Shown piece by piece: positions 18,694-26,969 of a stretch of 34,666 bases of DNA. Each line of letters starts with the position of its first letter. Position 1 is the stretch's first letter. Origin of the DNA: Nocardioidaceae bacterium (GTDB taxonomy: Bacteria > Actinomycetota > Actinomycetes > Propionibacteriales > Nocardioidaceae); the NCBI GenBank assembly GCA_013697585.1, contig JACCWP010000195.1:1-34666 (forward strand), written 5' to 3'. The translations under genes and the position numbers were made by a program. The notes under the pieces were generated by a model that saw only the letters and a list, made by a program, of their open reading frames with translations, was not told the DNA's origin and made no database searches.

Positions 18694-19176
18694 GTGTCCG
18701 AGGACAGCGTGGACTTCGCCGTTGTGGCATACCGCGAGGAGGGGGTCTGGCAGGTCCAGCCCCTGCCGCACCGGGTTGCGGCCGGCGGGCTGGGCGAGCT
18801 GGTGTCGGCGCTGCGGCCGTGGCCGGCTGAGAGCGGATCGCTCGGGCTGGTGTCTATCGACGAGGACTTCTTCGTGCTCGTTCGGGTCCAGGGCCGCGAT
18901 GTCCGGGCGTTGCTCTCCGACGTGACCGCCGCGGCCGACTGGCCGCTCGCGGCCGCGGTGATGGAGCTGCTCGACCTCCCCGACCCCGACGACGAGGAGG
19001 ATGCGCAGCCGGCCGGCCAGCTGGACATTGTGGCCGACCTCGGGATGTCCGCCATGGACATGGCAGTGCTGTGCGACGACCCCGACCTGTATCCCGACGA
19101 GATGCTCGCCGACGTCGCGCACCGGCTGGGCTTCGGTGGGGAGTTCGAGGGCGTCCTCGAGGGGGCATCGGTCTGA
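18694..19176 (+). CDS. tRNA adenosine deaminase-associated protein
   Basis: VDFAVVAYREEGVWQVQPLP, acidic DLPDPDDEEDAQPAGQLDIVADLGM; upstream of tadA; start uncertain. Confidence 0.8.
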   Translation: MSEDSVDFAVVAYREEGVWQVQPLPHRVAAGGLGELVSALRPWPAESGSLGLVSIDEDFFVLVRVQGRDVRALLSDVTAAADWPLAAAVMELLDLPDPDDEEDAQPAGQLDIVADLGMSAMDMAVLCDDPDLYPDEMLADVAHRLGFGGEFEGVLEGASV

Positions 19177-19208
19177 GCGTTCTGCCGACCAGCCCCTGGC
19201 ACGAGCCG

Positions 19209-19667
19209 ATGGGGGTCGCGCTCGCCGCAGCCCTGGGTGCGCTGCGCGCCCGCGACGTGCCCGTCGGCGCCGCCGTCCTGGATCGGACCGGCGCCGTGCT
19301 GGCAACCGGCCACAACACCCGCGAGCGCGATTGCGACCCGGCGGGCCACGCCGAGCTGGTCGCGCTGCGGCTGGCCGCCACCGCGCAGGGGTCGTGGCGA
19401 CTCGACGGCTGCACCCTGGTCGTCACCCTGGAGCCGTGCGCCATGTGTGCTGGGGCACTCGTGCTCGCCCGGGTGGACCGGCTCGTGTTCGGCGCCTACG
19501 ACGACCAGGACGGAGCGGTCGGGTCGGTGTGGGACCTCGTCCGGGACCGTCGCCGCGGCCATCGTCCGGAGGTGGTCGCAGGCGTCCGCGCCGGCGAGTC
19601 CGCCGTCCTGCTGCGCGCCTTCTTCGCCGACCACCGGGGCGAGAAGCAGCCGCCGCGGCTCGGGTAG
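19209..19667 (+). CDS. tadA: tRNA-specific adenosine deaminase
   Basis: GHAELVALR and LEPCAMCAGALVLARVDRLVFGAYDDQDGAVGSV deaminase motifs; start may lie further upstream. Confidence 0.9.
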   Translation: MGVALAAALGALRARDVPVGAAVLDRTGAVLATGHNTRERDCDPAGHAELVALRLAATAQGSWRLDGCTLVVTLEPCAMCAGALVLARVDRLVFGAYDDQDGAVGSVWDLVRDRRRGHRPEVVAGVRAGESAVLLRAFFADHRGEKQPPRLG

Positions 19668-19677
19668 CCTACTGCGC

Positions 19678-19767
19678 GGTGGCGTGTCCGAGCGGCCGAA
19701 GGAGCACGCCTCGAAAGCGTGTGAGGGTTCACGCCCTCCGTGGGTTCAAATCCCACCGCCACCGCCA
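19678..19767 (+). tRNA. tRNA-Ser (anticodon CGA)
   Basis: Acceptor GGTGGCG/CGCCACC, anticodon loop ctCGAaa, long variable arm, T arm GTGGGttcaaatCCCAC, encoded GCCA. Confidence 0.97.
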
Positions 19768-19872
19768 ACCTCCGGCGGCATCACCGCAGGTCAGCGACTT
19801 GTGTGGCGCCGCCGGTGCTGCGTTCAGGGGCCGATCTGCCCTCAACTACGTGCGGCAACCCGACTAGTGCCA

Positions 19873-20091
19873 TCACGCCGGCTGGATTGCGCTCCACCCA
19901 AGCCGACCGACCATGTCTGTCGCCGCACAGCCGTACAACCGTTCGGCCGCAGCGTTCCACGTGAGGATCCGGCCGTCCAAGTCCTCACTGAAGATTGCGT
20001 CGGCCGACACCTCCACGACCTGCGCCAGCAGATCCGCGTCGACCACGAGGTCATGGGCCGCACCCGTCGGGGTGGACCCGGTGACCGTCAC
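19873..20091 (-). pseudogene. Truncated PAS-domain ORF
   Basis: 72 aa ORF with LLAQVVEVSADAIFSEDLDGRILTWNAAAERLYGCAATDMVGR, stops mid-domain. Confidence 0.6.
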
Positions 20092-20460
20092 GGCACCACA
20101 ATCCCAGAGTTCATTGCACCGACGTTACGTCTGGGATCGCCAATCGAGCCGAACAGGCGCGTTTTCATGACGAGAATCAACCCGAACGGTGGACGCTGCA
20201 TCGGGGCTGTGGGGTGCCGCCATCCCCATCTGTCGGCTGGGATCCGTCGCCTTCAGGTGTATCGGTGGTGGCGTCAGTGGCGGCGGTCGTGCCACCGCTG
20301 TGGGCCGCGCGGTTTCACCGATCACGCGGCGGTGGGCTGACCGACCGGGTCCCGCCCGGTCGTCACGCCGGACAGATCGCCCTCGATGCTCTCGTTGCTG
20401 TTATCGCGACCAATTTCGTCAAAGTTCTCGTACCGTTCAATCGGGTCGTCTACGGTCCTT

Positions 20461-21795
20461 ATGATGGTCGTGCGCCGGGGATCTGCGCTTGGCCGCCTGA
20501 CGGCAACGGTGCTCGCGGCGGCGACCGCTGCCGGGCTGGCTGCCGGGGTGCCGTCGGCCGCGGCACTAGGCGTCGCTTCGGCGGGCAGGTTGGCCGCTGA
20601 GTCGGATCGGGGCTGGTTCGCCGCCGCCCGGGTGGAGACGGCCAGCCTGTCACCGCGTACCGGCCGGCCGGCCGGTGACATCGAGTTCGGTCAGGCGTCG
20701 CTGTCTGCTGATGGCCGGTTCGTGCTGTTCGTCGACAATGCCGGCGACGCGTCGGGGGAGCGGGCGTGCCGGGACACCCGCTGTCTGCTGCTGCGTGATC
20801 GCCGGCGCGACGTCACGACGGTGGTGTCGGCGCGTAGCGACGGGACCGCGGTGGGCAGCCGGGGTCTGATCTGGTCGGACATCAGCGGCGACAGTCGGCT
20901 GGCGGCGTTCAACGCCGAGGCGTACGGGCTCGGCCCACCAGGGCGCCGGCCGGAGGCCAACCTGTTCGTCAAGCACCTGCGGTCCGGGCGGCTGGAGGCG
21001 ATCGCGGCTCCGCCGGACCCGGCGGTCGAAGGGACGCGGCTGTTCATCAGTGTGCGCGCGGTGTCCGAGCACGGCCGGTTCGTCGGGGTCCGCGGGGGGT
21101 CGAGGTCCGGTTTCGGTTACCCCTACCTGTTCGACCGGGGCACCGGCACCTGGACACGGCTGCCCGCTCCGGACGGCGAGTCCGAGGTGGAGGCCATGAA
21201 CGACAACGGCCGCTACGTCGCGGTGGAGTCCTCCTCGGCACCCGAGGGCGGCGATGATCTGTTCGTGTACGACCGGCGCACCGGTCAGTCCCGGCAGGTG
21301 CCGCCGGGCCCGGCTCGCGCCGACGCGAGCATCATTGACGCCACGTTCAGCGGTGACGGCCGGCTGCTGTTCGTCACCTGGAACAGCTACAACCCCCGCA
21401 CCGATGTCGACACCGTCGAGGCCGTCATGTATCGCACCCGCGACCTGGGCGTGGCCGACGTCATCGACGACTACGGCATCGACGGCGTCGATGCGGCCAG
21501 CACCACCGGGCGCTACATCGCTGCCGTTGCGTTCGGCGACCACTTCGGGTCCGACACAACCCAATCGGTTGGCTACGACCGACGTACCGACACGATCACC
21601 CTGGTCAGCCGGGGCCGACGCGGCCAGCCTGCCAACTTCTGGAGCTACCCCACCGACATCAGCGCCGACGGACAGACCGTGCTGTTCAACACCGCGGCCG
21701 GCAACATCGCTCCGGAAGGCGACGACCGGCCCCGGCCGCTGTTCTTCGACGCGTACAACGACGTCTTCGTCACCGAGCTGTTCTGGCGTCGCTAG
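20461..21795 (+). CDS. Secreted TolB/WD40-like beta-propeller protein
   Basis: Signal peptide then repeated FGQASLSADGRFVLFVDNAG, DATFSGDGRLLFVTWNS, PTDISADGQTVLFNTAAGNI motifs. Confidence 0.75.
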   Translation: MMVVRRGSALGRLTATVLAAATAAGLAAGVPSAAALGVASAGRLAAESDRGWFAAARVETASLSPRTGRPAGDIEFGQASLSADGRFVLFVDNAGDASGERACRDTRCLLLRDRRRDVTTVVSARSDGTAVGSRGLIWSDISGDSRLAAFNAEAYGLGPPGRRPEANLFVKHLRSGRLEAIAAPPDPAVEGTRLFISVRAVSEHGRFVGVRGGSRSGFGYPYLFDRGTGTWTRLPAPDGESEVEAMNDNGRYVAVESSSAPEGGDDLFVYDRRTGQSRQVPPGPARADASIIDATFSGDGRLLFVTWNSYNPRTDVDTVEAVMYRTRDLGVADVIDDYGIDGVDAASTTGRYIAAVAFGDHFGSDTTQSVGYDRRTDTITLVSRGRRGQPANFWSYPTDISADGQTVLFNTAAGNIAPEGDDRPRPLFFDAYNDVFVTELFWRR

Positions 21796-21890
21796 ACGGG
21801 CCGGCCGACGCGCGCCGAGCCTCAGAGAGTTCTCCGCGCGGACGCAGTACTAGTCGGAAGGGGGCTGCCTCGGTTTGCCCTGAGGATCCT

Positions 21891-21961
21891 CGACTCGGGA
21901 TGTGCGGAGGCTGAGCGATGCTGTCAGGACTGAGTTCGCTGCAGCGAACTATCCCGAGTCG
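21891..21961. repeat. Nested palindromes near right end of island
   Basis: CGACTCGGGAT (21891-21901) / ATCCCGAGTCG (21951-21961); directly abutting 18-bp perfect palindrome AGTTCGCTGCAGCGAACT (21933-21950). Confidence 0.85.
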
Positions 21962-22004
21962 GTCGCCTGTGCCTCATCATCCGCGCGGCGAGTCGGGGGT
22001 CCGC

Positions 22005-22026
22005 AGTCTCAGTTGTAGTCTCAGTT
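22005..22026. repeat. 10-bp direct repeat AGTCTCAGTT x2
   Basis: AGTCTCAGTT gt AGTCTCAGTT at 22005-22014 and 22017-22026. Confidence 0.9.
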
Positions 22027-22124
22027 CGCCCGTATCCAGAGATGTCTGCCCGGGTCTGGCGGATGGCCGATCCCGCCTGAGCTGAGCCGACCTGCGCGGA
22101 CCATGCGGAACGCCTGGCCGCAGA

Positions 22125-22181
22125 CCTCGAAAGCGTGTGAGGGTTCACGCCCTCCGTGGGTTCAAATCCCACCGCCACCGC
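22125..22181 (+). repeat. Partial tRNA-Ser(CGA): duplicated 3' half (attR-like)
   Basis: 57/57 identity to 19709..19765; no 5' half of the tRNA upstream. Confidence 0.93.
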
Positions 22182-22187
22182 GCCGCC

Positions 22188-22270
22188 GTTTTCGCAGGTA
22201 CACCAGCGAAAGGTGCGCTTCCCCAGCGAAGTTTCCCCGGGGAGGCGCACCTTTGGCCTGGTCAGTGCAC
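22188..22270. repeat. Double-hairpin dispersed repeat (copy 1)
   Basis: TTTTCGCAGGTACACCAGCGAAAGGTGCGCTTCCCCAGCGAAGTTTCCCCGGGGAGGCGCACCTTTGG; strong stem AAAGGTGCGCTTCCCC / GGGGAGGCGCACCTTT. Confidence 0.8.
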
Positions 22271-22394
22271 AACCCGACCGGCCTCCCACACCCAGCGCCG
22301 GAGCGGAGGAGCGCGGCCGGGCGAGCTCTAGGCTGGGGGCCCTTGCTGAGGCACAGCGCGGAGACGGCGACCGACACGGCGAGAGGCGCGGCGG

Positions 22395-24882: not shown

Positions 24883-24945
24883 CCCGTGAACTGGCGGCAA
24901 CACGCTGACGACACGCCGTGGGCAACGCCGAGGTTCCGCCAGTTC
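24883..24945. repeat. Intergenic palindrome (copy 2)
   Basis: GAACTGGCGG (24888-24897) / CCGCCAGTTC (24936-24945) perfect arms; loop contains CGACACGCCGTGG. Confidence 0.75.
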
Positions 24946-24985
24946 GGCGCTTGGCTCACGCTCGACCGGCACGGTTACCATGGCG

Positions 24986-25078
24986 CCCAGCCCCTCGCGC
25001 GGCGGCATCCCGCCCAACTCCCCCAGGGCCGGAAGGCAGCAAGGGTCAGCAGGCTCTGCCGGGTGCGCGAGGGGTCTC
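24986..25078 (+). ncRNA. ffs: Signal recognition particle RNA (small bacterial type)
   Basis: CCCCTCGCGC..CAGGGCCGGAAGGCAGCAAGGGTCAGCAGGCTCTGCCGGG..GCGCGAGGGG; conserved apical GGAAGGCAGCA; closing stem pairs; located just upstream of dnaX. Confidence 0.9.
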
Positions 25079-25133
25079 CTGGTCCCCTCGGGACCGAGGG
25101 GACGTGTCCGGCGGCCGGGCTAGGGTGCCTGGG

Positions 25134-26969
25134 GTGGACGCCCCGCTCGCGCTGTACCGCCGTTACCGGCCGGAGACGTTCGTCGAGGTCCTGGGCCAAG
25201 ACCACGTCACCGTCCCGCTTCGACAGGCGTTGGCCGCCAACCGGGTCCATCATGCGTACCTTTTCTCCGGGCCGCGGGGCTGTGGCAAGACGTCCAGCGC
25301 CCGCATCCTCGCCCGTGCCCTCAACTGCGAACAGGCTCCCCTCGCCGAGCCGTGCGGCTGCTGCCAGAGCTGCCGCGACCTTGCCCGCGACGGCGCCGGC
25401 AGCCTCGACGTCATCGAGATCGACGCGGCCAGCCATGGTGGCGTCGACGACGCCCGCGACCTGCGCGAGCGGGCATCGTTCGCCCCAATGTCGAGCCGGT
25501 ACAAGATCTACATCGTCGACGAGGCGCACATGGTGACCACCCAGGGGTTCAATGCCCTGCTCAAGGTGGTCGAGGAGCCCCCGCCACACGTCAAGTTCAT
25601 CTTCGCGACCACCGAGCCCGACCGGGTGCTGCCCACGATCCGCTCCCGCACCCACCACTACCCGTTCCGGCTGCTCCCCCCACGGATGCTCACCGACTAC
25701 CTCGCCGAGATCTGCGCCCACGAGCAGATCGCGGTCGAGCCCACCGCGCTGCCGCTGGTCGTGCGCGCCGGCGGAGGGTCGGCCCGCGACACCCTCAGCG
25801 TGCTCGACCAGCTGATCGGCGGCGCCGACGATGCCGGCCTGACGTACGCGTTGGCCGCCGGTCTGCTCGGCTTCACACCTGCCTCACTGCTTGACGAGGT
25901 CGTTGACGCGTTCGCGGCAGGTGACGGCGGCACGGTGTTCCGGGTGGTCGACAAGGTCGTCGAAGGTGGCCGCGACCCGCGCCGGTTCGTCGAGGACCTG
26001 CTCAGCCGGCTGCGCGACTTGATCGTGCTCGGGCACTTGCCCGGCGCCGCCGGTGACGGGCTGCTCGACGTCAGCCCCGAGCAGGGCCAGCGGCTGGCCG
26101 GCCAGGCCGCCCGCTTTGGCGCCGCCGACCTGGTACGCGCCGCCGAGGTGGTCTCCACCGCGCTGGGTGAGATCCGCGGTGCCACCGCGCCCCGGCTGCT
26201 GCTCGAGCTGATGTGCGCCCGGGTGCTGCTGCCCGGCGCCGACGACAGCCTCGAGGGCGTGCAGGCCCGACTGGCCCGGCTCGAACGGCGACTGGAGATC
26301 ACCGGCCAGCCCGCACCCGCGCCGCCGGACCGTCAGCCGGCTCCCAGATCCGCCGACCCGCCCTCGGTCCCGGATCCAGCTCCCGCACCCGGCGCGGCGG
26401 TCGAGCCGGCCTCCGAGCGCACCGCTCAGCCCGCCTCGGTCCCCGAGCCCGCCGCTGACCAGGCCGCGGGTCGCAGCCTCGGCCTGGTCGACGTCCGCCG
26501 CGCCTGGCCCGACCTCCTCGAGCGCGCCGCGTCCGTACGCCGGCTGGCCTGGTCGCTGTTGAGCAAGAGCGCACAGGCGCACTCCCTCGACGGCCGCACG
26601 CTGACCGTTGCGTTCGTCAACGCAGGCAGCCGCGACTCGTTCGCCCGCAACGGCTGCGAGGAGGTGCTCCGACAGGTGCTCATCGACGTGCTCGGCGTCG
26701 ACTGGCGGGTCGAGTCGATCGTCGATCCGACCGCGGACTCGTCGACAGGGGTGCCGCCTCCTCCCCCGGCCGAACCCACCGCAGCCGCGCCACGACCAGA
26801 GCGCGGCCAGAGCGCGGCCGAACCGGCGACGGCCAACCAGGCAACCGCCGAGCACGGCGGGCCCGACATCAACGACCCCGATGCCGACGACCAGGGCGAC
26901 GGCACCCACGAGCTGCTCACCCGCGAGCTCGGGGCGCAAGTGATCGAGGAGATTCCGCACCGGCCCTAG
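25134..26969 (+). CDS. dnaX: DNA polymerase III subunits gamma/tau
   Basis: LALYRRYRPETFVEVLGQDHVTVPLRQAL, FSGPRGCGKTSSARILARALNC, EIDAASHGGVDDAR, YIVDEAHMVTTQGFNALLKVVEEPP; GTG start. Confidence 0.95.
   Translation: MDAPLALYRRYRPETFVEVLGQDHVTVPLRQALAANRVHHAYLFSGPRGCGKTSSARILARALNCEQAPLAEPCGCCQSCRDLARDGAGSLDVIEIDAASHGGVDDARDLRERASFAPMSSRYKIYIVDEAHMVTTQGFNALLKVVEEPPPHVKFIFATTEPDRVLPTIRSRTHHYPFRLLPPRMLTDYLAEICAHEQIAVEPTALPLVVRAGGGSARDTLSVLDQLIGGADDAGLTYALAAGLLGFTPASLLDEVVDAFAAGDGGTVFRVVDKVVEGGRDPRRFVEDLLSRLRDLIVLGHLPGAAGDGLLDVSPEQGQRLAGQAARFGAADLVRAAEVVSTALGEIRGATAPRLLLELMCARVLLPGADDSLEGVQARLARLERRLEITGQPAPAPPDRQPAPRSADPPSVPDPAPAPGAAVEPASERTAQPASVPEPAADQAAGRSLGLVDVRRAWPDLLERAASVRRLAWSLLSKSAQAHSLDGRTLTVAFVNAGSRDSFARNGCEEVLRQVLIDVLGVDWRVESIVDPTADSSTGVPPPPPAEPTAAAPRPERGQSAAEPATANQATAEHGGPDINDPDADDQGDGTHELLTRELGAQVIEEIPHRP

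Follow-up and report, generated by a model that had tools for sequence, protein, structure and literature searches.

How does the 3' half of a tRNA gene come to stand 2.4 kb away from the intact gene, in an interval that holds no integrase? This question is raised by the window, the whole 34,666-nucleotide stretch that we analysed, which is contig C250 of a 2.94-Mb Nocardioidaceae draft genome (299 contigs, 98.9% complete). The preliminary description of this DNA took the arrangement for the product of tyrosine-recombinase integration into tRNA-Ser(CGA). It left undecided whether the interval is the deletion scar of a larger element or a small element mobilised in trans.

The 57-bp copy of the tRNA 3' half that was described earlier is indeed present. 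The sequence CCTCGAAAGCGTG...CCACCGC, 57 nt long and corresponding to tRNA positions 32–88, occurs exactly twice in the same orientation, with a start-to-start distance of 2416 bp (Table 1). Extended to 62 nt, the pair matches at 97%, and the repeat is far above chance level. The distal copy lacks the tRNA 5' half, ARAGORN calls a single tRNA-Ser(CGA), and a second full or nearly full gene is absent, so the duplicate is not part of a tandem tRNA cluster. No other tRNA has a partial duplication of at least 15 nt in the window, and the 24-nt 3' end of tRNA-Ser(CGA) has no further mismatch-free occurrence in the genome. We notice that the copy ends in CGC-GCC, not in CGC-CA. Either drift has altered the native flank, or CCA was not encoded in the ancestral gene, and this ending counts against the explanation that we prefer below.

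Table 1. Features at the tRNA-Ser(CGA) site, in window coordinates.
Feature	Position	Strand	Remark
TadA gene	19071–19667		Upstream neighbour of tRNA-Ser(CGA)
Intact tRNA-Ser(CGA), target gene	19678–19767	+	ARAGORN call
Left att core, 3' half of tRNA-Ser(CGA)	19709–19765		Within the intact tRNA
Left-end motif CGCAGGTCAG	19785–19794	+	17 nt after the tRNA
Truncated PAS-domain ORF, 72 aa	19873–20091	-	PF00989 match
Secreted seven-bladed WD40-like (PD40) beta-propeller protein, 469 aa	20386–21795	+	Cargo
Putative arm-type tandem repeat AGTCTCAGTT-G-TAGTCTCAGTT, right end	22005–22026	+	Motif and spacing shared elsewhere
Right att core, 57-bp copy of the tRNA-Ser(CGA) 3' half	22125–22181	+	Anticodon loop to acceptor stem
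Probable native flank up to the antiporter gene	22182–22394	+	Includes a genome-wide palindromic repeat

The gene order TadA, tRNA-Ser(CGA) and Na+/H+ antiporter is conserved across the family, which allows the occupied site to be compared with empty ones. Four relatives (G048, G016, G038 and G041) have empty sites, with a spacing of 108–196 bp from the tRNA to the antiporter. Subtracting one 2416-bp unit from the window predicts 211 bp, close to these values. The spacing ranges from 590 bp to 17.6 kb in twenty other relatives, and in the single same-genus genome compared (G001) it is 866 bp, with the tRNA copy absent. The 2.4-kb interval itself, whose presence in all relatives would point to vertical descent, is absent from every relative examined. 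Given this variable spacing, and with no examined relative carrying the interval, the gap between TadA and the antiporter that holds tRNA-Ser(CGA) is a family-wide hot spot, and the interval of the window is an insertion. Searches with the interval DNA found no match in phages and plasmids and no second copy in the own genome, and the tRNA 3' end was not found as attP in viral contigs. A tblastx scan was set aside, being swamped by GC-rich chance matches.

Other sequences around the site were also observed. About 8 nt past the tRNA copy begins a palindromic intergenic repeat, TTTTCGCTGG...CCAGCGAAAGGTGCGC...GCGCACCTTT (approximately 22189–22257), with about 40 dispersed copies in the genome. 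Near the same antiporter in G025 (L049) and G035 (L067), we find 20- and 24-nt copies of the tRNA-Ser(CGA) 3' end accompanied by GTGGTCAC-type repeats; these represent a second element type, using the T-arm of the tRNA. Elsewhere in the window, a bacterial small SRP RNA gene (24988–25080) lies inside the longest dnaX reading frame (24918–26969), so the true dnaX start is probably further downstream.

The gene content of the interval agrees with what had been read from the sequence at first, a secreted beta-propeller gene and a truncated PAS ORF. The propeller ORF carries seven blade motifs of the S-x-D-G-R-x-V type, its homologues match PD40 (the WD40-like beta-propeller repeat), and its signal peptide probably starts at 20461–20464. 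Its best relatives within the order reach just 25–30% identity, one distant paralogue lies on contig C35 of the own genome, and a protein search of genome contigs, viral contigs and plasmids gave no match. A single-sequence fold of the protein was poor (pLDDT 43) and was discarded. The PAS ORF matches only positions 3–44 of the 113 in PF00989 and is cut in the middle of the domain, at its tRNA-proximal side. Contig C115 of G001 gave a 76% DNA match near an integrase; this was rejected, since only the PAS part of a histidine kinase gene is matched. Searches of the interval against Pfam, NCBIfam and PHROG bore out the absence of integrase, excisionase and replication genes, and integrases of the matching element class (see below), used as queries against the window, found nothing.

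The right end of the interval carries the signature of an integrative element. The pattern AGTCTCAGTT-N-TAGTCTCAGTT sits 98 bp upstream of the 57-bp copy, where the full repeat reads AGTCTCAGTTGTAGTCTCAGTT. A pattern-only search with AGTCTCAGTTGTAGTCTCAGTT, one base left free, returned 19 named stretches, mostly from Actinobacteria; three of the 19 are low-complexity repeats of Firmicutes. In the remaining stretches, the motif mostly lies either about 60 bp after a tRNA gene (Ser-GGA, Thr-CGT or Phe) or about 90–135 bp before a tRNA-Ser fragment beginning in the anticodon loop, and the window shows the latter arrangement. At the other right ends, 89–134 bp separate the repeat from the GAC/CAG at the core. 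In the tRNA-side position, the integrase gene often terminates at or near the arm repeat. Among 397 genomes of the order, just five contain the motif, the window's own included, compared with zero for a reversed-motif control and a chance expectation of about 1e-5 at this GC content. The motif directly follows tRNA-Ser(CGA) in G037 and G146. Its sole match in viral contigs (L158) was rejected as chance, lying inside a longer repetitive reading frame with no tRNA nearby. In a Nocardioidaceae MAG (G422, locus L159), tRNA-Ser(GGA) is followed by the AGTCTCAGTT repeat, and nothing close to the integrase is encoded in that genome; this locus is possibly another integrase-less scar.

Intact elements with the same signature are available for comparison. 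The larger island bounded by a tRNA-Ser 3' half that was sought after the first reading exists in G037, of the same order, as a complete 22.2-kb element in the same tRNA-Ser(CGA). There the tRNA is followed by the arm motif, a 423-aa tyrosine integrase and, 22.2 kb away, an exact tRNA copy of 58 bp (positions 33–90), which starts one base later than the copy in the window. A degenerate arm repeat occupies about the same distance at the right end of that element. The G037 integrase is 53% identical to that of Aeromicrobium sp. Root495, where a 19.4-kb element with an integrase at tRNA-Ser(GGA) has a 56-bp repeat and the motif at both ends. Since the motif and its spacing are shared and the right end of the window aligns with that of G037, we assign it, on sequence comparison, to the right end of this class of AGTCTCAGTT-arm tRNA elements. 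Members of the class further carry, some 60 bp past the tRNA, an arm repeat with an integrase of 406–423 aa nearby, and the window lacks both. Although the own genome, 98.9% complete, has 13 Pfam integrase matches, the search for a resident tRNA-Ser integrase of the cognate type came out negative: the best match to the G037 integrase is partial, with 35% identity (E 1.9e-9).

At the left end, where the AGTCTCAGTT repeat is absent, the 10-mer CGCAGGTCAG is found instead. It has 43 copies in the own genome, compared with 11 for a reversed control, and most of them lie away from tRNAs; the motif is short. Six copies, including that of the window, stand no more than 30 nt from a tRNA gene, where about 0.04 would be expected if the genome is assumed to have approximately 50 tRNA genes. 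The others are located near tRNA genes on contigs C42, C159, C161 (two) and C260, and a further copy follows a tRNA fragment on C56. Three other junctions with the motif bear integrases, at tRNA-Arg(TCT), tRNA-Thr(CGT) and a tRNA-Arg(ACG) fragment. The stretch or a near copy also follows tRNA-Ser(CGA) in G015 and G025, and a search with the left-end 16-mer across the order gave no more matches than the control. From these tRNA contexts and the two relatives, the left end of the window looks like that of a different element type from the right end, a weaker claim than the assignment of the right end. The left end could also be a native flank common to G015 and G025, not a second element.

On contig C56 (L214), a displaced 44-nt tRNA-Arg(ACG) fragment, beginning in the anticodon loop, is directly followed by the end of another integrase-bearing element, an arrangement that points to tandem insertion in this genome. 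Contig C220 (L157:263–290, 585–650) carries, about 400 bp apart at most, fragments that resemble the 3' ends of tRNA-Ser(CGA) (22 of 24 nt) and tRNA-Thr(CGT). Direct repeats of the GGTCAC type precede the former, and the fragments are probably further integration scars.

Tyrosine-recombinase integration into the tRNA, as first proposed, is supported by the empty-site spacing, the absence of the interval in relatives, the G037 element and the right-arm repeat. We are confident that site-specific integration at tRNA-Ser(CGA) left the interval behind as an immobile scar, and we lean towards the idea that its two ends derive from two different elements. The explanation that we favour as a whole, and consider likely, is a composite scar in which two elements stood in tandem, both integrases were lost and the propeller gene was left stranded. 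A tyrosine-integrase element would have crossed over in the anticodon loop, and its own 3' half would have rebuilt the tRNA. The original 3' half would thereby have been displaced rightward to the position of the present copy, and the right arm with its arm-type repeat would have survived just before it. A second element, of the CGCAGGTCAG left-end type that is common in this genome, would then probably have inserted at the rebuilt tRNA to form a tandem array. One or more deletions, running from inside one element to inside the other, may have removed both integrases and most of the sequence. What survived would be one element's left end and the other's right end, together with a PAS gene cut in its middle and the beta-propeller gene, which is still open. 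With its intact tRNA, the scar can still serve as a landing site, but for excision it has no matched arm pair. Comparison with intact elements supports the view that an element inserted at the tRNA, that the right end belongs to the AGTCTCAGTT-arm class and that the integrase was lost; the array of two tandem elements and the deletion count we infer. The deletion junction is not directly readable in the sequence, and we would place it near 19830–19880, because the truncation of the PAS gene is at its tRNA-proximal side.

The simplest history would be that of a single element, from which one internal deletion took the integrase together with the left arm repeat and left about 100 bp of the element's own or native flank. 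These two features adjoin in several reference elements, so one deletion near the tRNA would take both, and the occurrence of the CGCAGGTCAG stretch or a near copy after tRNA-Ser(CGA) in G015 and G025 fits this account as well. A deletion starting beyond approximately 19850, however, should spare an arm repeat located about 60 bp from the tRNA, and none is present; moreover, CGCAGGTCAG adjoins other integrase/tRNA junctions of the own genome. We regard a single element as possible but doubtful. The choice left open by the preliminary description, between a deletion scar and an element mobilised in trans, falls to the scar. A functional non-autonomous mini-element served by an integrase in trans would account for both core copies being intact and for the perfect right arm repeat, yet the matching left arm is absent, and neither a second copy in the genome nor a match in phages, plasmids or relatives exists for the interval. 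Since the G037 integrase finds just the 35% partial match, mobilisation by a resident enzyme is unlikely, and we consider a functional mini-element very improbable.

The draft state of the genome, with its 299 contigs, would allow two strains to have been joined at the tRNA during assembly. Such an artefact is highly improbable, given that both flanks retain the TadA, tRNA and antiporter order of the family and that the insert ends with element-specific sequence. If no mobile element took part, a tandem duplication or the decay of a second tRNA-Ser gene would explain why the repeat is a tRNA sequence in direct orientation. Against it, the copied part comprises only the 3' portion from the anticodon loop, a foreign 2.36-kb interval separates the copies, with an integrase arm repeat at the expected distance, the same arrangement occurs with an integrase in G037, and all relatives have a single tRNA. 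We give this explanation almost no weight.

Returning to the composite scar, the locus is of a known kind, a genomic fossil of the ordinary sort except that the pairing of its two ends is slightly unusual. It shows cleanly how cargo genes can be stranded in the chromosome when deletion follows tandem insertion at a tRNA, and the combination of an arm repeat and a tRNA fragment is a signature that locates such scars without an integrase gene. As a tentative conjecture, the AGTCTCAGTT pair might mark the arm sites of a single integrase lineage of Actinobacteria, which kept these sites as it moved among tRNA-Ser(GGA), tRNA-Ser(CGA) and tRNA-Thr(CGT). The window would then be a hybrid scar, with its other arm from another lineage, fixed because no single integrase can excise it. 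If so, solo arms beside tRNA fragments would reveal integrase-less scars that island finders miss.

Among known systems, Islander class A comprises tRNA-targeted islands with an anticodon-centred attachment site (PMC4383910). The window likewise has an intact tRNA and a fragment of its 3' part in the same orientation, starting in the anticodon loop, and relatives provide empty sites of the expected spacing. Islander requires an integrase, so integrase-less intervals are filtered out (PMC4383910), and the interval described here, unlike Islander islands, holds none. A cis-mobilizable element (CIME) has lost its integration and transfer genes and kept its att sites; CIMEs arise by decay, often in tandem arrays, and move in cis once a helper element has joined them by accretion (PMC5704250). 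Like a CIME, the interval has no integration and transfer genes. Unlike a CIME, it does not retain attL and attR of one element: the right arm is there, and the left end carries CGCAGGTCAG instead. Since its left and right att do not match, the interval falls outside the strict definition of a CIME, and the arm pair needed for cis-mobilisation may be incomplete. Compared with the G037 and Root495 elements, the interval is short of the tyrosine integrase and the left arm repeat, and it shares with both nearly the same repeat boundaries, the arm repeat and the spacing at the right end, and with G037 the target gene as well.
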